DNA of 64,000 nucleotides. Origin: an uncultured Bryobacterales bacterium. Lineage in GTDB: Bacteria > Acidobacteriota > Terriglobia > Bryobacterales > UBA6623. Every line of letters starts with the position of its first letter. The stretch's first letter is position 1. The position numbers were made by a program, and so were the translations under genes. Below are positions 456-22,797 of the stretch, one piece after another. Where the stretch lies: NCBI GenBank assembly GCA_958295955.1, contig OY282420.1, positions 2,618,435 through 2,682,434 on the forward strand. Direction: 5' to 3'. The notes under the pieces were generated by a model. That model saw only the letters and a program-made list of their open reading frames with translations, was not told the origin of the DNA and did no database searches.

Positions 456-467
456 CGACGATTTCCT

Positions 468-1346
468 CTATGTCCGGCGGGCGGGCAGGCGCGGCCGATC
501 CCCGATGATCCCCGACTTGGCGAGGTCTGCGATCTCCCGGCCGGATAGGCCCAAGATACCGCCGAGTATCTCGCGGTTGTGCCGGCCTAACGTAGGCGCG
601 GGCCGCTCGATGTCGAACGGCGCTCCGACCAGCCGATACGGCGCCGGCGGGTTCGGTTGGGCGCCGACGAAATCCCGTTCCATGATTCTCCAGTAGCCCC
701 GCGCTTGAAGATGAGCGTCCCGGGTTAAATCCGAGGCCGGCCGGACAACGCCGGACGGAACCCCGGCTGCCTGCAAGCGGTTCATGGCCGCCCAAGCGTC
801 ACGACCGCGGGTCCAGCGGGTGACCGCCGCGTCCAGCTCTCCGCGGCGTTGGAGGCGGTCGGCAACCGAGCCGAAACCGGCAACGAGACCGCCTAGCGCC
901 TCGCGGAAGCCGGCCCACTGCGCCTCGTTCTGCACTTGCACCGCCAACCAGCGGTCGCTGCCGGCGCAACGATAGACCCCGTGCGGGGCCGCCGCGGCGA
1001 GTCGTTCCGGGTTCACGGCCCTGCGGCCTCCGATTCCGCAATCGATTACCAACGCGCTGTCTCGCGCCAACTCGAAAAACTGCGCGGCGTCCTTGGGGCT
1101 GTCCATATCCAACACGATGCTGCGCTTGTTCGTGCTCAAGTAAGAGTGCATCGCGCTCGATTCGGGCGGCGCGGCGCCCGGAACGAAGGGAGCAAGCCCG
1201 CGCGTTGCGAATCCGCTGTCCGGCGGCTCCACCAGAACCACCTCGGCGCCGTGATCCGCGAACAGTTTTCCGCAATAGGCGGCGGCTACGCTGCCGGCAA
1301 CGTCGAAAACGGAGATGCCTGCCAATGCTTGCGTTCCCCGGTTCAT
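468..1346 (-). CDS. CaiB/BaiF-type (class III) CoA-transferase, internally shortened
   Basis: Residues 1-100 match the start of class III CoA-transferases, with the GAEVVLVEPP nucleotide-binding strand and TNKRSIVLDM. The C-terminal part also fits the family, from PHGVYRCAGSDRWLAVQV to GAPFDIERPAPTLGRHNREI. The protein has 292 residues, while the family usually has about 380-410. The missing piece is the middle: the sequence passes from the 'ALVIDCGIGG' region almost directly to 'PHGVYRCAG', skipping the stretch that normally carries the catalytic aspartate. The frame is uninterrupted. It may be an inactive paralogue, a subunit of a split enzyme, or a gene with an in-frame deletion. It precedes the biotin carboxylase in a likely operon. 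Confidence 0.75.
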   Translation of the reverse strand: MNRGTQALAGISVFDVAGSVAAAYCGKLFADHGAEVVLVEPPDSGFATRGLAPFVPGAAPPESSAMHSYLSTNKRSIVLDMDSPKDAAQFFELARDSALVIDCGIGGRRAVNPERLAAAAPHGVYRCAGSDRWLAVQVQNEAQWAGFREALGGLVAGFGSVADRLQRRGELDAAVTRWTRGRDAWAAMNRLQAAGVPSGVVRPASDLTRDAHLQARGYWRIMERDFVGAQPNPPAPYRLVGAPFDIERPAPTLGRHNREILGGILGLSGREIADLAKSGIIGDRPRLPARRT

Positions 1347-1451
1347 CGCTTGCTCGATGTCATTTCCACGGCCGGCGGCGCGCGGCGGGGATCGCCGAGA
1401 TAGACATCGCCATGCTTGCGTTTCGCTCCGCGCGAATGAACGCCTCCCGGC

Positions 1452-2879
1452 TCAGTCCGCAGGCAGCGGCGTCACGGCTCGGTCGAGGTATTGGCGGACG
1501 GCGTCGACCACCGCCCGGTTCTCCGCCGCCACGTTGTTTTCTTCTCCCGGATCGACGGTCAGATCGAACAACTCGAGCGGTTCTTCCGGGCCTTCGCGAA
1601 CGGCCTTCCAGCGGCCCCAACGGACGGCTTCCGCGTTGCCCGCAGTGCCGCCCCAATAGAGAAAGCGGTCGCCCTGTTCCTGCCGGGCGCCCGTCAGCGC
1701 CGGCAGAACGCTGATGCCGTCGATCGCTTCGGGAATCTCGAAACCCAGCAGATCGGCAACGGTAGGCAAAAAGTCGGCGAAATACCAGACGAAATCGCTG
1801 CTTGCTCCGGCGGGCGCTTTGCCCGGCCAGCGCACGATCATCGGGACGCGGATTCCGCCGTCGTGCAGCGAACGCTTATAGCCTTGCAGCGGGCCGTTCG
1901 AGTCGAAGAAAAACGGGTCGTTGCCGCCTTCTTTGTGGGGGCCGTTGTCGGAGGTGAAAAAGACCAGCGTGTTCTCGTCGATGCCGTGCCGTTTCAGCGC
2001 GTCGAACAGGCGGCCGATGTCCGCGTCCATGTATGAAATCATTGCCGCCGTGCCTTTCTGCGGGCCGGGCCAGTCTTTGCCGGCGTATATCCCGGCATCG
2101 GGGACTTCCATGCCGATCCGCTCGCGGTGAGCGCCGAGATCGGCCTGAACGTTTTGCATGCCGGGGTCTCCGCCGCCTTCGCGGGTTCCGGCTTGGTTGT
2201 TCGCGTGGGGAATAGTCAGCGCCAGATACAGAAAAAACGGTTCGGACGCATGCTTTTGCAGCCAGTCCAAGGTTTCTTCCATCAGCAGGTCGTGCGCATA
2301 ATCGACCCGCTTCACGGCAACGCCGCTCATGCCGTTGTAGCGGCCGGAGGGAACGACCTCGTTGCCCAGGGGCACGCGGTCGGCCATGCGCATCAAGAAC
2401 TGCGGATAGTAATTATGCGCATGCCCCTGGCTCAGATAGCCGAAGAAATGGTCGAAGCCCTGCCGCCACGGAGCGCCCGGAGAATCTTCCATGCCCAGAC
2501 CCCACTTGCCGATCAGCGCCGTCGCATAACCCTGCTCTTTGAGCAGTTCCGCCACGGTCACGTTTGCATCGAGCAGGCCCGGCGAGCCGTTGCGCCGCAC
2601 GCGGGTATGGCCGGTGTGCTGTCCCGTCATCAGCACGCTTCTCGACGGCGCGCAGACGGTAAAGCCCGCATACACGTCGGTAAAGCGTATGCCCTCCGCC
2701 GCCATGCGGTCGAGATGCGGCGTCTGGATTTGCGTTTGGCCGTACGCGCCGAGGTCGCCGTAACCGAGGTCGTCGGCCATGATCCAGACGATGTTGGGCT
2801 TGGATGTCCCGGGTTCGGGCGCCTCGCCGCCGCAGGCGGCAAGAACGGCGAGCCCGCAGAAAAAGCGAACGGAGCGCAT
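1452..2879 (-). CDS. lipoprotein sulfatase (formylglycine type I)
   Basis: Predicted hydrolase of sulfate esters. From ATG 2879 the protein starts MRSVRFFCGLAVLAAC, a lipoprotein signal with lipobox cysteine 16. I therefore prefer this start to the in-frame ATG at 2915, which adds 12 residues that spoil the signal. PNIVWIMADDLGYGDLG carries the metal-binding aspartates near residue 36. The formylglycine signature C76-A-P-S-R is followed by SVLMTGQHTG, and a DNGPHKEG metal-site motif lies in the second half. Length 475 is usual for an S1-family sulfatase. It is divergent from the PhoD-like gene. The substrate cannot be inferred. Confidence 0.9.
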   Translation of the reverse strand: MRSVRFFCGLAVLAACGGEAPEPGTSKPNIVWIMADDLGYGDLGAYGQTQIQTPHLDRMAAEGIRFTDVYAGFTVCAPSRSVLMTGQHTGHTRVRRNGSPGLLDANVTVAELLKEQGYATALIGKWGLGMEDSPGAPWRQGFDHFFGYLSQGHAHNYYPQFLMRMADRVPLGNEVVPSGRYNGMSGVAVKRVDYAHDLLMEETLDWLQKHASEPFFLYLALTIPHANNQAGTREGGGDPGMQNVQADLGAHRERIGMEVPDAGIYAGKDWPGPQKGTAAMISYMDADIGRLFDALKRHGIDENTLVFFTSDNGPHKEGGNDPFFFDSNGPLQGYKRSLHDGGIRVPMIVRWPGKAPAGASSDFVWYFADFLPTVADLLGFEIPEAIDGISVLPALTGARQEQGDRFLYWGGTAGNAEAVRWGRWKAVREGPEEPLELFDLTVDPGEENNVAAENRAVVDAVRQYLDRAVTPLPAD

Positions 2880-2949
2880 TGCCGCAAACGGCGCTGAAAC
2901 AGGAGCCTCGATCATCTATCCACTATCCGTTATTTTCGTTGCTTGTTGC

Positions 2950-2955
2950 TACAAT
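2950..2955 (+). promoter_or_regulatory. -10 box for the PhoD-like gene, leaderless geometry
   Basis: TACAAT preceded by TGC (extended -10). Its last T is 8 bases before ATG 2964, so transcription should begin at or next to the start codon. No -35 of TTGACA type is evident. Confidence 0.5.
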
Positions 2956-2963
2956 GCCGCGGC

Positions 2964-5642
2964 ATGAAGAACGAGCTCGACCGCCGCGATTTCCTGAAAG
3001 CCGGCGCGGCTGCATTGACGGCTGCAACCGCGCCCCAGGCTGAAGCAACCGTTACGTCCTTTCATCGGCCGGACACTCTCTATCACGGCGACGACTGGGA
3101 ATCGCTCAACCCCGGCTACTGGCAAATCAAGGAAAACGCTCTGCGCCGCCGCATCCGCAACTACGGAGACCGCGCCCGCCGCACGGGCTTTCCCTACCAC
3201 TACGAAACCCACGGCGACCGGCTCGGCGCTTACGCCATGCCCGTGGACTACGATCCTTCCCTGCCTCCCGGATTTCTCTGGAATCGTAACTGGAAGCTCA
3301 AAGGCAACTATAAGCTCGCAATCAGGGGCCGCATCGCCGCGCTGCCGCATCCCCCGGAGGAGGGCGACGACGCCTCCTGGAAGATGTACCGGCCGGGGTA
3401 CGGGTTCGTCGGCTTGGCATTCGGCTCTTCGACGCTCTACGAATCCTACGGGCAGGCCGGCGGCGGCGGCAAGGCCGCCTGGTTCGCAGCCTGGCGGGAC
3501 GACGGCCGTTTCGGAATTTACGAGCACGGCGCGCAAGCGAGCATTGCCGACAAACGAGCGGCGCGCCCGGTCGGCGGCCGGGAGTTCACGCTCACCGTAT
3601 CCGTCAGCGGAGACGACCCCCTGCTGGCCGATTTGGAGGCCCGACTCGAGATCGCCGGCAGCCCGGGCGTTTACCGCGTCGAGCAGCGTTCCATCGAGCG
3701 CGCCGCCCGCGCCGAAGGGTACGTGGGCGTCGCCGGCCAGGGGCTTCTCGACTTTGAAATTACCGGCTTCACCGTCGAGCCCGGCGAGAATCGGCCGCTG
3801 TCGCCGAAAGTGAACGACTGCCACGTCTGCTACGCGCTGGGAGACACGCTCAAGCAACCGGACGGCGACTGGCGGGTGCGCTTCATCGGCTTGTTCCGCG
3901 CGGACGGGGAAAAGGCCGAGGTGCGCATCAGCGACTCGCCTTCGCCGGCCGGCGGTTGGGCGAGCGTGCCTGCCGCCGGGTCGGGCGCCATCGTCAATAA
4001 CGACTTTCGCCGCAACACTGCGGTTATCGACGCCAAGCTGCCCGGGAACCCCGCGGAAACCGCCTTTTACTACACGGTCTGGAAAGACGGCCGCGACGTC
4101 ACGCCCGATCCGCGCCTGGGCACGGACGCAGTCGGCCTCGGCGCCGGCCAAGTCGGGCGGGTCCCGGACGACGGCAATTACGTCGGACGCCTGCCGCGGC
4201 TGCAAGCCCCCTATAAGCTGTGCGGCCTCTCCTGCCACGCCATCCACGGCGGAGGACCCAAGCTGCCGGACGCCGGCCCCGGAGGCGGATTCTTCGTCCA
4301 CGACCAGCCTACCCCCGACGCCTACAAATACCTCGACGACTATAACTTCCAGGTCATGCTCTGGGAGGACGACGTGTGGTACATGGAGTTGCTGCTCTAC
4401 CCGCCCTCGCCGGACGATGCCTACAAAATCGTCACGACCACTCTCTGCGGCCCCGCCTCGCGCTGGCAGATGATGCGCCACTGGAACGTCATCAACCCCG
4501 GCGACCACGACTACGGCATGGACGACATCAAAGGCCCCGAACAGATCGCCATCCGCAACCACCCCGACCTCGGGCAGGATATCGACTACATGCGGCGCAA
4601 CTTCCAGATCGTGCATCACCTCGTCACGGGCGACGAGTCTCCATCGGGAACCGCAAATCCTAAAAAATGGCGGCGCTGGAAGATGCCCGACCGCGATTTC
4701 AGCCTGCTCGTTCTCGACAGCCGTTTGTGGCGCTCCAGCCAGGACACGAATATCTGGGACGACGAAGGCTGGGGCAATAAGGAAAGCCTCTATACCCGCC
4801 GCGACGTCACCCGCAGCCTGCTCGGAGAAGAACAGTTCGCCTGGCTGAGCGACACCGTCCGCACCGACTCCTCGCCGCTGATCTGCCTCACCGGAATCAA
4901 CGGCATGCATACGATCTGGACCGGCGACGGACGCAAGCCCGGCGCCAAAATCCGACTTTACGAACGCGACCGCGTCGCGGCGGACTACGCCGGATGGGTG
5001 TCCGCGGGAGTCGATCGGATACTCGAAGTCATAGGCTCGCGGGATGGGATCGTCAGTGTTTACGGCGACGTCCACGTCGGCATGATTCTGCGCAATACCG
5101 ACCATCGGGTCTATGAGTGCTCGTTCGGGCCGATAGGCCGCAGCGGCGGCCGCGGCGTCAAGCAGGGCTTCGGCCCCAGGATGCAAGACTTCGACGGCCG
5201 CTCGGTGACGATCGAGGCGCTTTACCACCAGCGCTACGACACGCCCATGCTGGAGAAAAAAGACGGACCGTTCTATTGGAATTTTCTCGAGATGGAGTTC
5301 GACCCGCGGGGCGCGGAACCGCGGTTCGGGCTGCGCGTGCGCAATCTCGTCGACCCGCCGAGCGAAGAGCCGCGGGGAGGCGGGTCCGTTGCCGAATCCG
5401 CCGCCAACACCGGCCGCCCGCCGACATGCCGCATCCCGGCGGTCAAGCTTCCGCCGGATGCCGACGTGCTGATTACCGACAGCATGGGCCGCCCGATCCG
5501 CGGGGGGCGAACGCTGGCCGACGGGTCGCTTCCGATTCGAGGACTCACCGGCGTCGCCGCCGGCGAGATTGTGATTCTGACCGCCCGCAACGGCGGGAGA
5601 GTCTCTTCGCAAGCCGTGACGACGACGGCCGTCGAGGCATAA
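2964..5642 (+). CDS. Tat-exported PhoD-like metallophosphatase
   Basis: Starting at ATG 2964 the protein has a Tat signal, MKNELDRRDFLKAGAAALTAA. An upstream start at 2943 would only prepend seven residues. Residues from about 40 to 270 look like a beta-rich domain of laminin/concanavalin type. The C-terminal half resembles PhoD-type phosphatases: GDHDYGMDD, then PDRDFSLLVLDSRLWRSS, LLGEEQFAWLSDTV and the late YGDVHVGM metal-ligand motif. The length (892 residues) is well above ordinary PhoD (about 500) because of the N-terminal domain. A phosphodiesterase or phosphatase acting outside the cytoplasm is likely. The match is by motif only and the substrate is unknown. It sits between a sulfatase and an arylsulfotransferase. 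Confidence 0.6.
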   Translation: MKNELDRRDFLKAGAAALTAATAPQAEATVTSFHRPDTLYHGDDWESLNPGYWQIKENALRRRIRNYGDRARRTGFPYHYETHGDRLGAYAMPVDYDPSLPPGFLWNRNWKLKGNYKLAIRGRIAALPHPPEEGDDASWKMYRPGYGFVGLAFGSSTLYESYGQAGGGGKAAWFAAWRDDGRFGIYEHGAQASIADKRAARPVGGREFTLTVSVSGDDPLLADLEARLEIAGSPGVYRVEQRSIERAARAEGYVGVAGQGLLDFEITGFTVEPGENRPLSPKVNDCHVCYALGDTLKQPDGDWRVRFIGLFRADGEKAEVRISDSPSPAGGWASVPAAGSGAIVNNDFRRNTAVIDAKLPGNPAETAFYYTVWKDGRDVTPDPRLGTDAVGLGAGQVGRVPDDGNYVGRLPRLQAPYKLCGLSCHAIHGGGPKLPDAGPGGGFFVHDQPTPDAYKYLDDYNFQVMLWEDDVWYMELLLYPPSPDDAYKIVTTTLCGPASRWQMMRHWNVINPGDHDYGMDDIKGPEQIAIRNHPDLGQDIDYMRRNFQIVHHLVTGDESPSGTANPKKWRRWKMPDRDFSLLVLDSRLWRSSQDTNIWDDEGWGNKESLYTRRDVTRSLLGEEQFAWLSDTVRTDSSPLICLTGINGMHTIWTGDGRKPGAKIRLYERDRVAADYAGWVSAGVDRILEVIGSRDGIVSVYGDVHVGMILRNTDHRVYECSFGPIGRSGGRGVKQGFGPRMQDFDGRSVTIEALYHQRYDTPMLEKKDGPFYWNFLEMEFDPRGAEPRFGLRVRNLVDPPSEEPRGGGSVAESAANTGRPPTCRIPAVKLPPDADVLITDSMGRPIRGGRTLADGSLPIRGLTGVAAGEIVILTARNGGRVSSQAVTTTAVEA

Positions 5643-16890: not shown

Positions 16891-18024
16891 TCAAGACTTT
16901 TTCTTTTTCTTCTTCGGGTTCTCGAATGTGGTTTCCAGGGTGCCGGAAAGGCTCTGAACCATCGCTTGAGCGCTCGCGGCATACGGTCCGGAGGGCTGCA
17001 ATTCCAGGTATTTGCGATAGGCTTCGACCGTACCCGGCGCAGGAACGATGGAGCCGTCTTCCTTCATCGTCGCGGTGCCGACCAGCGCCGTGGCGAGCTG
17101 GTAGTAGGCATCGGCATGGTCGGGCTGAACCTCCGTCGCCTTGCGGAAAGCGTCGATCGCCCCTTGCGCATTCCCGCTGTTGACCATCACGGCGCCGAGG
17201 TTGAAGTAATATCTGCCGCCGTTCGCGGGATCCAATTCCGCGGCGGTCTGCAACTCGGCCTTGCCTTCCTCCGCCTGCCCCGCCTTGATCAAAGCGAGTC
17301 CGAGGTTGTTGTGATACGCCGCATCGGGCTTCAAGGCCAGCGCCTGGCGGTAGGCGTCGATCCCCGCTTCGACGGCCGCCGTGCGCTCGTCGCCCGTCTT
17401 GGTCCCGGCCAGATTCGAATAGGCATCGGCAAGGTTCGCCCAGACGACATCCTGCTCGGGGTCGATCTCCGACGCCTTTTTCAAATGCATCACCGCGACG
17501 GGGTAGTCCTTCAGCCGCCGCGCCTCCATGCCGGCATTGAAGGCCGTGTTCAACTCCTTGTTCTTGGTAAGCTGCTGCTGACGAGCTTTCAGCGCTTTCT
17601 CGTATTCCTTGCGCTGCTTTTCGCTCATGGCGGCAAGCTGCTCTTTCGAAGGCCCCGCGCCGGACGCCTGTCGGGCTTTCTGTTCCTGCTGGATCTCGGC
17701 CAGACTGAAGTCCAAGGGTTTGTCGTCGCCCATCTTGATCGGATAGCCGTTGATCCTTTGCACTTCCTTGCCGTCGATCTCGAGGTAAACGACGTATTGT
17801 CCAAGCGGCAGGCCCGCATGGAAATAGTCGCCCTTCTTCTTGGTTTTGACCTTGTAGTTGCCTCTGACGCCCTGACGCTCCAGATAGACCATTGCGTCCT
17901 TGACGGGTTGGCCGTTTTCGTCGGTGACTCTACCGCGAATCGACCCTGTCTGGGCAAATGCGGCCGCGGTCAGCACGAACGGCGCCGCGGCGGCAAACAC
18001 GATTCGAAATATCTTGGCTTGCAT
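16891..18024 (-). CDS. exported TPR protein with carboxypeptidase-regulatory-like domain
   Basis: 377 residues from ATG 18024, supported by GGAGGG seven bases upstream. The signal peptide (about residues 1-24, ending AAAFA) is followed by a beta-sandwich domain, GSIRGRVTDENGQPVKDAMV, of the type often found at the N-terminus of acidobacterial outer-membrane proteins. A charged linker comes next, then four or five tetratricopeptide repeats (about residues 170-350): YPVAVMHLKKASEIDPEQDV, AAYHNNLGLALIKAGQAEEG and RYYFNLGAVMVNSGNAQGAI. It ends in KKKKKS. Probably a periplasmic scaffolding protein; partners unknown. Confidence 0.85.
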   Translation of the reverse strand: MQAKIFRIVFAAAAPFVLTAAAFAQTGSIRGRVTDENGQPVKDAMVYLERQGVRGNYKVKTKKKGDYFHAGLPLGQYVVYLEIDGKEVQRINGYPIKMGDDKPLDFSLAEIQQEQKARQASGAGPSKEQLAAMSEKQRKEYEKALKARQQQLTKNKELNTAFNAGMEARRLKDYPVAVMHLKKASEIDPEQDVVWANLADAYSNLAGTKTGDERTAAVEAGIDAYRQALALKPDAAYHNNLGLALIKAGQAEEGKAELQTAAELDPANGGRYYFNLGAVMVNSGNAQGAIDAFRKATEVQPDHADAYYQLATALVGTATMKEDGSIVPAPGTVEAYRKYLELQPSGPYAASAQAMVQSLSGTLETTFENPKKKKKKS

Positions 18025-18343
18025 GGAAAATCCCTCCAACTGCTTTTCCTAAGTAAGCATACAACATCTTTGGCGGCGCCGTGAAGGATTGGGTTTCGCC
18101 CGGGCATCCCGGCCAAAAAATTTCGCTGCGGCAACCCGAGCGCCCGGCGCGTTTGCGGGCGCCGCCGCCGCCAATACGGGCGTTGCGAGGCCGTTTCCGC
18201 GTTGATCCGCGCTGCGGGCCTCAAACGCAACGCGCGGAGGGTGTAAACTTTTGGGGTATCCGCTTTGCTCTTGCACGGCAACGGCTGTTCCATGCGGAAT
18301 TGCAATCCGGCGGTATTGAGAGGCTTCTCCAGTGGGTAACAGG
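18025..18343. other. 319-base divergent intergenic region
   Basis: Separates the TPR gene (minus) from the 1136-residue secreted protein gene (plus). It contains the TPR-gene promoter at 18056-18085. Towards the plus-strand gene I see a TAAACT at 18242-18247 that could be a -10 for a leader of about 95 bases, but no matching -35. I see no RNA gene, repeat or small reading frame that I can support. Confidence 0.4.
18056..18085 (-). promoter_or_regulatory. sigma-70-like promoter of the TPR gene
   Basis: Reverse-strand TTCACG (18085-18080), 18-base spacer, TATGCT (18061-18056). Predicted start near 18049 leaves about 25 bases of leader containing the Shine-Dalgarno GGAGGG. Confidence 0.45.
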
Positions 18344-21300
18344 ATGAAACGACTTATCCTTGCCGTTCTGGCCGGCGCCGTTGGGGCTTTCCCGGTTCCT
18401 CTGGCGGGCGCCGTCGCAGACGCGCTGCGGCTGGAGCGGGAAGGCCGCATGATGGAAGCGCGCATCGAGTTGGCCCGCTCGGTGGAGCGAGCGTCCGACG
18501 ACGCGGAAGCGCGCATCGCCTGGGCCGAATTTCTCGACCGCCACGGCGGCGCCGGCGTTGTCGAAGCCTATCGGCAGGCCATCGAGAAGCTGCCGCGCAG
18601 CGAAGCGGGCAAGCGCCGGGAGATGCTCCGCCGCTTGGTTCCGGCGGCGCTGCTCGCCGGGGACGCGGACGCCGCGCGGGAAGCGCTTAACCGGTTGCGC
18701 GGCGAAGACCCGTCGATCTGGCCGGACGCGGCGCGCGCGCTGCAGGCGCCGGCATCGTTCGAGAGCACGGCCGGCAACCACGTCGTCGTTCCCGGCGTGC
18801 TGAATTCGTTTCTGCGCATGGCCGCCCTCTCGACCGATCTGCGGCTCGAAGAGTTGCTTCCGGCGCTGGCGCAAAACATCGTCACCGGCGGTTATCGGGC
18901 AACGGGCGGCCCCGCGGGCATGGAGCCCACCGAGTATTTGAAACTCATCATGCAATACCTGTCGCAGGCCCGCGAGTTGGAGCAGTTCGCCGGCGCGGAC
19001 AACACGATCGACGTGCCGGCGTGCGAGTCGATGGAAACCGCGCAGTTGCTCAAAATCCTCGGTTTCCGCTTGCGCGGCGAGTGCGGCGCCGGGGCCGTTC
19101 TCGAGACCGTCAATCCCTCGCGCGCCTTCCTGTCGATCGACTCGGCGTTTCCGCTGGCCGACCTGGAAGCCGCCTATCAGCGCGACGAGGCGTTCCATCT
19201 CGATTACCGCGCCAGCGAGCTGCCGATCCTGTTCGACCGCGATTATTGGCTTGCGGGCGCCAAGAAAGCCGAAGGCGACTTTCTCGATATCTTCCTCGGC
19301 GACCCGGGACTGGCCAGGCTCTATGTCGCCATGAGCCGCCTCCACCGCCCCACCGCCGAGGCGTTGAAGGCCGTGTCGCCGGTGGACCGCCTGAAAGACT
19401 ACGCCAACGTCCTCGATTTTTTCGGAGCGGCCTTCGAGGTCGAAAGCGGCCGCGCCGTAGCGCCCGGCGGCGACAGGGCCAAAGCCGCCTGGGAGAAATT
19501 GGCGGGGCAATCCACCGCCGACGGGGGCAGGTTTTTTCAGCGCCTGATCGAACTCGACGACGGCTGGCTGGCGGCCTTCTACGACGCCCTGGCGCGCACC
19601 GGCGGCCCGGCCCGCGACTACCTGACGGAACCGCAACGGATCGAGCGCTTTTACGCCGCGGTCCGCGGAAAAATCACCAGCCCCGGGCCCGCGCGGCCGA
19701 TCTTCCGCGCCAACGCGGAACTGTTGCTGCTGGCCACGCGGCTCCACTTCAACAGTGACGGAAGCCCGTACATTCCCGGGGGCGTCGAGCCCTGGAAGAA
19801 TCTTTTCGTCAAGCATCCGCACGGCAAGTACGACGGCAGGCTGACCCGCTCGGCGAATACCTGGAGATCAGCGGACGACGTCATCGAAGCGATGTTCGCG
19901 CTGTGCCGCAAGGCCATCGAAAACGAGCCGCTCAAGATTTTCCTGGCCGTCTCGAATATCGACCGCCGCCGGTCCGTTCCGTTGGCCCCGGCGACCGTGG
20001 AACGCCTGATTCTCGCGTTTCCCTTGCACGGCGAGCAGTTCGCGCTGTACAACGATTCGCCGAACCTGAGCGACGCAGCGATTACGGCGCACCTCGACGC
20101 CATGCCGCGGCTGGACAAAATCAACTCTTACGTGCGCCGCGCGGACGCCACGGGCGCCTTCCAGGCGCTCATCGGACTCTGGCAGGTTCTCCGCCGCAAC
20201 GGCGCGATCCCCGAGGCGCAAGCCGACGAGTCCTTACGGGCAATTCTGGCGCCGTTCGCGCAAATCCGCAATCAGCAGGCCGTATTCGAAGCCGGCCGCA
20301 ACGGCGTTCTTGCCCTGTTGCGCGCTGCCGGACACGAAGCGACCGAAGCGCCCCAGGAAGTTTTAATCGAGCTTTTGGCCGGCGACTTCGGGCCGGGCGA
20401 AGACGTCGTCCACCGCGAGCTCGTCGAGCGCATGAACCGTTTGTTGAATCTGCAGAGGCTGATCCCGCTCAAGACGCTGTTCGACTTGGCCGACCACCTC
20501 GAGCGCGTCTCGCGCGGCGAGGCGTTCAACGTCGCCATGGCCAACCGCTTGGCCGCCAACATCTCGGAAATTCGCCTGCCCTACGCCACGCTTTCGTCGG
20601 CCGAGTCGAACACGCTGACGCAAGGGCACTGGGTCGAGCGCCACATCCGCGATCAGCGGACGCTGAATCTGCGGCGGGCGGTTGACCGGGCGAGAGAGAA
20701 TCCGGCGCAACTGCTCGAGATTCGCGGCGACTTGGCGCCGATGCTGCGCGATTCCCTGGTCGGGCTGCTCTACGCTTTTTATTCTCCTCCGGGCGCGGAA
20801 ATCATCCAGGCCAACCCGCTGTTCATACGCAGCCACGATTTTCTCGGCCCCGAAGCGCGGCGCGGCTGGTCTCGAGCGCGCATCCAGGGCTTCGGTTGGC
20901 CCAACAGCGGGGGCGGACGCATCGTCGGCTCGTTGATGACGCTGCCGTACGGTCTTGCTTCCGCCGAGCAGAACTTCATGGTTCCCACCGAGCGCCAAGC
21001 GCTCATCTGGCAAGACCTCGCTCCGCAAATGCTGCTCGGCGCGACGGTTCCGCGATGGTGGAAAATCGATCCGGCGGAACTGCAGTTCGTCGGCCTCCAT
21101 CTGCGGCTGGGCAAGCTGCTGCTGGCGCGGGCGGCGCTCGACCCCGCCGTGCTCGGCGAGGTCATGGGGCATCTCCGGCGGCGCGTCGAGCCGAGCCGCT
21201 TGTGGAAAATCGGGAATGCATTCCGCAACGGCGCGGTCCGCGACGGCGTAGACGTCGTCACGCCGGCGGAATTGTTCGCTCTGGCCAAGCGCGCGCGGGA

Positions 21301-21754
21301 GTCGAGCCGCGGCTTGGCGGCCGCCGCCGCCGGCCCGCATCTGGAGGCGATCGAGCGGCTTGCCGCCCGCGACCCGTCGAAGTTCAACTACGACCGCGCG
21401 GCGCGGCTCTTCGGCATGCCGCATCCGCGGCTGGCGCGGTCGTACAGCCTCGAACTGCTGAATCTCCCGCTCTTCCCGACGATGATGGGCTACTCCAGCC
21501 GCATCCTGGCCGAAAGCTGGGAATCGAACAACCTTTTCTGGGCGGCGCTGGCCGACGAGTTGCACATCGCGCCGGCTCAACTGAATCTGCTGATTCCCGA
21601 ATGGACGCAGCGCTCGCTGGAGCGAATTTTTGCGACCCATCTCGATGACTGGCCGGCCCTCTGGAGGTCGCTGCGATTGATTGCAGACGAGGTGCGCAAA
21701 CAGCAGCGGCCGCGGCTCGAACAGGAAGTACAAACGGCGCTTGCGTCCAACTGA
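18344..21754 (+). CDS. very large exported protein of unknown function
   Basis: 1136 residues from ATG 18344, which gives the signal peptide MKRLILAVLAGAVGAFPVPL; a GTG at 18332 would only add four residues. After the signal, residues about 25-130 look like TPR or related helical repeats (EGRMMEARIELARSVERASD, then AWAEFLDRHGGAGVVEAYRQ). The remaining thousand residues are mostly helical, rich in Ala, Leu, Arg and Glu, and show no motif I can name. I see no membrane segment after the signal and no enzyme signature. The next gene, 23 bases downstream, is a VWFA-type secreted protein, so the two probably form one transcript. A conserved acidobacterial envelope function is plausible but unproven. 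Confidence 0.8.
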   Translation: MKRLILAVLAGAVGAFPVPLAGAVADALRLEREGRMMEARIELARSVERASDDAEARIAWAEFLDRHGGAGVVEAYRQAIEKLPRSEAGKRREMLRRLVPAALLAGDADAAREALNRLRGEDPSIWPDAARALQAPASFESTAGNHVVVPGVLNSFLRMAALSTDLRLEELLPALAQNIVTGGYRATGGPAGMEPTEYLKLIMQYLSQARELEQFAGADNTIDVPACESMETAQLLKILGFRLRGECGAGAVLETVNPSRAFLSIDSAFPLADLEAAYQRDEAFHLDYRASELPILFDRDYWLAGAKKAEGDFLDIFLGDPGLARLYVAMSRLHRPTAEALKAVSPVDRLKDYANVLDFFGAAFEVESGRAVAPGGDRAKAAWEKLAGQSTADGGRFFQRLIELDDGWLAAFYDALARTGGPARDYLTEPQRIERFYAAVRGKITSPGPARPIFRANAELLLLATRLHFNSDGSPYIPGGVEPWKNLFVKHPHGKYDGRLTRSANTWRSADDVIEAMFALCRKAIENEPLKIFLAVSNIDRRRSVPLAPATVERLILAFPLHGEQFALYNDSPNLSDAAITAHLDAMPRLDKINSYVRRADATGAFQALIGLWQVLRRNGAIPEAQADESLRAILAPFAQIRNQQAVFEAGRNGVLALLRAAGHEATEAPQEVLIELLAGDFGPGEDVVHRELVERMNRLLNLQRLIPLKTLFDLADHLERVSRGEAFNVAMANRLAANISEIRLPYATLSSAESNTLTQGHWVERHIRDQRTLNLRRAVDRARENPAQLLEIRGDLAPMLRDSLVGLLYAFYSPPGAEIIQANPLFIRSHDFLGPEARRGWSRARIQGFGWPNSGGGRIVGSLMTLPYGLASAEQNFMVPTERQALIWQDLAPQMLLGATVPRWWKIDPAELQFVGLHLRLGKLLLARAALDPAVLGEVMGHLRRRVEPSRLWKIGNAFRNGAVRDGVDVVTPAELFALAKRARESSRGLAAAAAGPHLEAIERLAARDPSKFNYDRAARLFGMPHPRLARSYSLELLNLPLFPTMMGYSSRILAESWESNNLFWAALADELHIAPAQLNLLIPEWTQRSLERIFATHLDDWPALWRSLRLIADEVRKQQRPRLEQEVQTALASN

Positions 21755-21777
21755 GAGCGAACGAAGGGATACCGCAC

Positions 21778-22797
21778 ATGACCCGCGCGCAACTCCAAAC
21801 CGCCAAGCTTTTTCTTGCGGCAATGCCGCTCGGCTTCATGCTGCCCCAGACGGCAGGCCAGCAAACCGACCTGACCGACGAGCCGACCGCCATCTTCGAG
21901 GTCGAAGTCGATCTGGTCATGCTGAACGTCGCGGTGACCGACCGCCGCGGGCGCTATATCACAGACCTCAAACCCGAAGATTTCCGCATCCGGGAAGACG
22001 GCATCGAGCAAACCATTGCCTCCTTCGGCGAAGGCAACGCGGCGCCGCGGCAGATCTCGCAACTGCGCACCCGCAGCAGCGCCGCGCCCGAAGCGGACGT
22101 GCGCAGCGCGGTGGACGATGCCGTCGGCGGCTCTCTCGCGGGCGCTAATGTTTTCGTGCTGTTCGATACGAGTAATTTCATGTACCGCTCGTTCGTTTAC
22201 GCCGAAGACGCCATCGCGGACTTCATCCGCGGCCTCGACAGCGCGGACTCCGTGGCCTTCTACGGCTTCAGCAGGAATTTGACGCGGCACACCGTATTGA
22301 CGGCCGCGCACGGCGATGCGCTCAGGGGACTCCGGCGCTCGGTCGCCGGCGACGAGACGGCTCTTTACAATTCGCTGCTGCTGACGCTGCGCGACGCGGC
22401 CAAGGTGTCCGGGCGAAAGGTCATCATCGTTTTCTCCAACGGCCCCGACAACGCCAGCACTATCGCGCCCGACGACGTCGGAGCGATCGCCGAAGACGAG
22501 GGCGTCCCGATCTACGTCATCAGCACCAAGGAACTCAACAAAGATCCGATTTCCAGCAACGCCTTTCGCCGCATCACGGAGCGCACCGGCGGCAAGGCGT
22601 ACTTTGCGAAGACCTGGCAGCGCCAATCGGAGGCATTTGTCCAAATCCGCGAGGAGTTGGCCAATTCCTACACGATCACTTACTATCCGCAGCCGAATCC
22701 GAATCGAGGCTGGCGCAGCATCAGCGTGGAATTGGCGGGCGAAGAGCATCGGCGGCGCCGCGTCAGGACGCGCGCCGGCTACAGGCCGAAGTTGTAA
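21778..22797 (+). CDS. VWFA-related acidobacterial-type secreted protein (TIGR03436-like)
   Basis: 339 residues. After a signal-like N-terminus comes the family's opening beta domain (VDLVMLNVAVTDRRGRYITD, LKPEDFRIREDGIEQTI), then a von Willebrand A domain (ANVFVLFDTSNFMYRSF) and the C-terminal strand YTITYYPQPNPNRGWRSISV. This order is characteristic of TIGR03436, a family greatly expanded in Acidobacteriota. The metal-site loop, normally D-x-S-x-S, reads D130-T-S-N-F134, so the last serine is missing and metal binding may be weak. GAAGGG precedes the ATG, and the gene follows the 1136-residue protein by 23 bases. Confidence 0.88.
   Translation: MTRAQLQTAKLFLAAMPLGFMLPQTAGQQTDLTDEPTAIFEVEVDLVMLNVAVTDRRGRYITDLKPEDFRIREDGIEQTIASFGEGNAAPRQISQLRTRSSAAPEADVRSAVDDAVGGSLAGANVFVLFDTSNFMYRSFVYAEDAIADFIRGLDSADSVAFYGFSRNLTRHTVLTAAHGDALRGLRRSVAGDETALYNSLLLTLRDAAKVSGRKVIIVFSNGPDNASTIAPDDVGAIAEDEGVPIYVISTKELNKDPISSNAFRRITERTGGKAYFAKTWQRQSEAFVQIREELANSYTITYYPQPNPNRGWRSISVELAGEEHRRRRVRTRAGYRPKL

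Follow-up and report, generated by a model that had tools for sequence, protein, structure and literature searches.

The H-V locus

Two open reading frames of 1136 and 339 codons lie on the same strand, 23 nt apart, in the window (the whole stretch of 64,000 nucleotides that was analysed, from an uncultured Bryobacterales bacterium), and the gene pair proposed in an earlier note on this DNA is therefore real. The first gene, H (18344..21754, +), opens with ATG and encodes a large protein of 1136 aa that is predicted to be exported and whose core belongs to no known family. An in-frame GTG at 18332 (+) would give a product of 1140 aa and, judged from the sequence, may be the actual start of H; an AGAGG motif stands 8 nt ahead of this GTG and no clear ribosome site is found at the ATG at 18344. 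The H stop and the start of the second gene are separated by a gap (21755..21777, +) in which no terminator-like site was seen, and V (21778..22797, +) encodes a VWFA protein of 339 aa, also predicted to be exported, which was assigned to TIGR03436 by profile matches.

Both proteins begin with a hydrophobic, signal-like segment in a simple hydropathy scan, which in H covers residues about 1-23 (18344..18412, +), reaches a hydrophobic peak of 2.25 and has a start that aligns across orthologues. The same scan found no clear membrane-spanning stretch past the N-terminus of either protein, the V maximum outside this region being 1.57 at residue 38. The signal-like N-termini suggest that H and V are secreted by the Sec route. 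H is single-copy in this genome and occurs in 17 of 18 family genomes, counting this one. Its frame is not a product of chance, because 16 of the 17 other family genomes have full-length orthologues (54-65% identical).

Divergent from H is a gene (16891-18039, -) for a protein with carboxypeptidase-regulatory-like and TPR segments (CpReg-TPR), which is upstream of H in close relatives only and is 66-70% identical there. Its domain order resembles the N-terminus of a natural H-V fusion described below (L073; E 0.001). We considered this gene as a further component of the system and rejected it, as the similarity is weak and relatives beyond the family have not retained it.

Structure and conserved residues of H

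The earlier note had described H as a helical protein with a TPR-like N-terminus and no recognisable domain. With regard to the N-terminus, residues about 17-137 (18392..18754, +) have a TPR fold, matching many TPR chains with Z 11-13 over about 100-120 residues (VIA-align), and the description is thus borne out by structure even though the Pfam TPR models miss this head; sequence models detect TPRs in longer relatives only. The head also varies among H proteins, being absent at two loci (L036/L037) and forming part of a much longer TPR region at two others (L070 and L077). An AlphaFold2 model of whole H (pLDDT 71, pTM 0.53) is mostly helical, so the claim of helicity holds for most of the chain, but not for residues about 146-295, which are mixed alpha/beta. 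Following the head is a core of residues 140-740 (18761..20563, +), comprising the alpha/beta part and then helices, and a C-terminal helical part of residues 741-1136 (20564..21751, +), delineated from the model and from conservation, that includes a poorly predicted segment at about 815-903.

The absence of a recognisable domain was confirmed, in that no Pfam or NCBIfam family matched H above cut-off. There was also no match to a PADLOC family, and the best match among PDB sequences (E 0.0032) was restricted to residues 27-102 and was not convincing. A profile built from a phylum-wide alignment of 25 H sequences found nothing among PDB sequences, and family profile searches with the aligned members yielded only TPR repeats, in a few of them. 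No recognised enzyme family emerged from either the Pfam/NCBIfam or the H-alignment profile searches. Matches of H to CBP_BcsQ (E 0.024) and BcsC (E 0.29) were below cut-off and were rejected. A C-terminal beta-barrel, as in TPR outer-membrane exporters of the BcsC/PgaA type, is not predicted, the C-terminal half being predicted as helical and free of strands, with low confidence at about 815-903.

Foldseek and VIA-align matches of whole H were dominated by the TPR head and the core was therefore compared alone. Modelled by itself, the core was predicted with confidence (AlphaFold2 pLDDT 86.5, pTM 0.76), and the structure-prediction check suggested earlier found no known fold for it: as one unit against the PDB the best Foldseek E was 0.44 and the best VIA-align Z was 5.8, a value that for helical repeats may reflect just a common arrangement. 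Comparison with PDB and viral structure libraries gave weak, scattered helical matches only. Accordingly, a match of H to a known family of unrelated role, which would have counted against the earlier proposal, did not appear, and we regard the modelled core as unmatched and as a candidate for an unseen fold, without calling it a proven new fold.

Five positions are invariant in the 25 phylum-wide sequences. Three phylum-wide invariant residues, Y810, H831 and G862, lie in or beside the poorly predicted segment. Elsewhere, strong conservation is seen mostly at Gly, Trp and Pro. In addition, C227 and C247 in the alpha/beta part are invariant in 20 aligned Terriglobia sequences. The presence of Y810 and H831 among just five invariant positions, together with the two cysteines, is what might be expected if H were an exported enzyme of a new family, with an active site at about 810-862 and with V as its substrate-recruiting or anchoring subunit. 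We consider such an enzyme unlikely, given that H resembled no enzyme in the family and fold searches and that its remaining conserved positions are of the kind seen in structural cores; the model of the C-terminal segment is too weak for a pocket to be judged.

V and its metal site

V matches TIGR03436 over model positions 3-322 of 324 (E 2.5e-43, 148.8 bits against a cut-off of 81.25), in agreement with the identity first proposed for the downstream gene, and also matches Pfam VWA_2. The same genome has about a dozen further TIGR03436 copies, some of them close together; one (G000:C1:3362418-3362912) appears to be broken by two stop codons. Across the genomes counted, copy numbers range from about 12 to over 50, among thousands of genes.

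In most H-linked VWFAs of other lineages, the three motifs of the MIDAS-type metal site read DxSxS, TALYD and [ST]DG. The corresponding motifs of V in the window (22165..22449, +) are DTSNFM (130-135), DETALYN (192-198) and SNGPD (220-224). With DxSxS, the downstream Thr and [ST]DG taken as the ligands, the Thr is kept and the other two motifs are lost, such that V does not qualify as having this site. All examined Terriglobia H-V orthologues follow suit: their first motif is DTSN[FY]M (one has DSSN), the Thr site is occupied by T, A, S or E, and the third motif is SNGPD, whereas most H-linked VWFAs outside the Terriglobia orthologues have an intact site (DxSxS-like, TALYD-like and [ST]DG). 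Since the MIDAS is degenerate in Terriglobia V, metal-dependent VWA binding by V is unlikely in this genome, as far as the motifs can tell.

VWA domains are classic adhesion modules. It is conceivable that H projects from the cell and that V is an integrin-like module for an external ligand rather than for H, and several features are compatible with this: both proteins have export-signal-like N-termini, TIGR03436 is expanded in these genomes and the MIDAS is intact at most loci outside Terriglobia. However, in Terriglobia the metal site has been lost from all V orthologues while the sequence is still about 50-77% identical to V of the window. Furthermore, V has diverged less than H (mean distance 0.33 versus 0.44), unlike many surface adhesins, and no surface-anchor motif is apparent. 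A role in surface adhesion is thus, in our estimate, improbable, and somewhat more so than the enzyme considered above.

Distribution and adjacency of the pair

Of 396 Acidobacteriota genomes sampled, 49-53 have H according to profile searches. The 19 H loci from named genome contigs all belong to Acidobacteriota, and the search for distant relatives, which covered Acidobacteriota genomes and plasmids, gave no plasmid match. The H frames examined are about 830-1840 aa long and their identity to H of the window falls to about 15-20%. Nevertheless, a VWFA gene on the same strand directly follows H at every locus whose contig continues (about 79). This figure is made up of 17 family orthologues, 3 distant paralogues, 9 loci on other contigs, 19 class-level loci, 18 distant loci and 13 held-out loci, and some genomes may be counted in two of these collections. 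The held-out loci are those whose H was not part of the profile, and there too a VWFA adjoins H in 13 of 13 cases. The phyletic and synteny check proposed earlier therefore shows a pair conserved across Acidobacteriota.

Chance adjacency at every locus is not credible, because about 12 to over 50 TIGR03436 copies sit among thousands of genes. We also considered that adjacency might reflect descent only, that is, inherited synteny or common regulation with no joint function. Gene order around the pair is indeed largely common to close relatives, the CpReg-TPR gene and a CCA transferase gene being part of it. However, these neighbours are kept in close relatives only while the H-V pair persists phylum-wide; among 48 distant loci no gene family recurs besides H, V and a VWFA-TPR gene (see below). 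This reading is hard to reconcile with the held-out loci, or with the joint absences and the fusion presented in the next section. We disfavor it, and regard it as largely refuted and scarcely probable.

Two observations concern individual loci. In some genomes of the family there is another, distant H-V pair (L018-L020; 23-24% identical), which has a long extension at the N-terminus, genes that overlap by 4 nt and a VWFA with near-canonical MIDAS motifs. At another locus (L083, G379:C12) the C-terminal part of H is in another frame, which suggests a frameshift or an assembly error, and V is still downstream.

Co-inheritance, co-loss and fusion

In a tree of 37 H-linked VWFAs and 39 unlinked TIGR03436 paralogues, the H-linked proteins form one branch, apart from 38 of the 39 unlinked paralogues; the branch has moderate support (81/95) and includes one unlinked, long-branch sequence (L144). 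Distances among H proteins and among V proteins correlate at 0.99, a value uncorrected for relatedness.

We searched 27 genomes of one Terriglobia family with a profile of the V orthologue; the 21 of them without H are near-complete. The orthologue was found in all six H-positive genomes (419-448 bits) and in none of the 21 H-negative genomes, where the best match, of 111 bits, is taken as a paralogue. Because both states, H-positive and H-negative, occur inside each of two genera, the pair has probably been gained or lost jointly more than once, a reading that comes from uncorrected counts in related genomes.

At one locus (L073) H and V are joined in a single uninterrupted frame of 1281 codons. 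Its order is CpReg-like and TPR segments, the H core minus part of the C-terminus, a Pro-rich linker and the VWFA domain. Non-conservation of the pair, which the earlier note had named as grounds for dismissing its proposal, is thus not what we find: the pair occurs phylum-wide, is lost jointly and has been fused once.

Many non-Terriglobia loci have a third gene, which was found at about 16 distant loci. The encoded VWFA-beta-TPR protein is roughly 900-1000 aa long and comprises a divergent TIGR03436 domain, a central region that appears beta-rich from its sequence and C-terminal TPRs. Two loci (L075 and L077) have a fusion of the two VWFA parts, and at one (L081, positions 462-3377) the gene runs convergently to H-V, outside their operon. 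No full copy of the third gene turned up in the genome studied here, where VWFA and TPR proteins matched it just in part.

A model for H and V

Functional coupling of H and V is strongly supported, and the two very probably form one undescribed cell-envelope machine. The direct results on the pair are its adjacency, co-inheritance, co-loss, fusion, MIDAS pattern and H core model; we infer its export, direct binding, location and job. We favor the possibility, to which we give a probability of about 0.55, of a single exported envelope complex to which both proteins are dedicated, H as the scaffold and V as the docking subunit. In this working model H would be a large scaffold, with a TPR head for binding peptides or proteins and a long, mostly helical platform on which the VWA subunit V docks. 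Outside the Terriglobia orthologues, where the MIDAS is complete, docking could be metal-dependent and reversible, by way of an acidic residue of the partner; in these lineages a third, probably exported protein, the VWFA-beta-TPR product, is often encoded alongside. In Terriglobia, including this genome, the metal ligands are lost and the contact between H and V may have become permanent and metal-independent. The likely job of the complex would be to assemble or hold other proteins of the envelope, as a scaffold without enzymatic activity in the periplasm or at the surface. Counted in favor of a scaffold are (i) the TPR fold of the head, (ii) the mostly helical, unmatched core and (iii) the lack of a recognised enzyme family.

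Some points weigh against this model. Co-inheritance also fits proteins that act in the same pathway without contact, the H-linked VWFA branch has only moderate support and includes an unlinked sequence, and the invariant Y810, H831 and G862 leave room for an active site in H. Whatever the job of H-V, it is not universal, because H occurs in just 49-53 of the 396 sampled genomes.

A bolder version of the model is that H is a new fold, that H-V, with or without the VWFA-TPR protein, is a categorically new Acidobacteriota machine, and that a metal-dependent docking switch was ancestral and is frozen in Terriglobia. We hold this only tentatively, at well under even odds. The H sites aligned to 688, 910 and 1061 have acidic residues in other lineages and mostly lack them in Terriglobia, and would be candidates for the lost ligand, a lead that comes from sequence comparison and from one evolutionary branch. 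The notion of an undescribed two-protein envelope system, as first put forward, accordingly stands with regard to the conserved pair and a core of no known family, but has to be amended in that many non-Terriglobia lineages have three genes and that V of this genome, with its degenerate metal site, cannot be presumed to bind in the classic metal-dependent VWA manner.

Comparison with known systems

In the open-access library searched we found no paper on the H-V pair, and none that names the TIGR03436 model or reports a function for it. Of known structures, TPR solenoids are closest to H; residues 17-121, for example, match the C-terminal domain of LpoP (6w5q) with Z 13.4 (104 aligned, rmsd 2.7). 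However, only the head of H is TPR, the other 1000 or so residues are unmatched and unrelated proteins often match TPRs as well.

There is precedent for a pairing of envelope VWA and TPR proteins in the Bat (Bacteroides aerotolerance) operons of Bacteroides and spirochaetes, which contain VWFA, TPR, DUF58 and MoxR ATPase genes (PMC5700661). Bat function is also unproven, and deletion in Leptospira biflexa gave no growth or oxidative-stress phenotype (PMC3557215). One could thus suppose that H-V belongs, as a diverged branch, to the Bat / MoxR-VWA envelope systems, where the partners of VWA and TPR proteins are a MoxR AAA+ ATPase and a DUF58 protein; V also weakly resembles the BatA_Lepto model (E 1.6e-5, below cut-off). 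This is disfavored and, in our view, very unlikely: MoxR ATPase and DUF58 genes recur with Bat but not at the H-V loci (48 distant loci, with the comparison limited to the loci themselves), H fits no Bat model, and V has no clear membrane anchor outside its N-terminus in the simple hydropathy scan, as opposed to three membrane-spanning segments in the Bat VWA protein BB0173 (PMC5700661).

The preferred reading, a scaffold with a dedicated docking subunit, also bears on the family to which V belongs. Acidobacteriota rank among the most abundant bacteria in soil. V matches nearly the whole of the NCBIfam model TIGR03436 (acidobact_VWFA), but differs from the family at large in belonging to the H-linked branch, separate from nearly all tested copies, and in having a degenerate MIDAS. 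One branch of TIGR03436 now has a dedicated, co-inherited partner, whose core is itself a candidate for an unseen fold, and this provides a concrete handle on the VWFA expansion.
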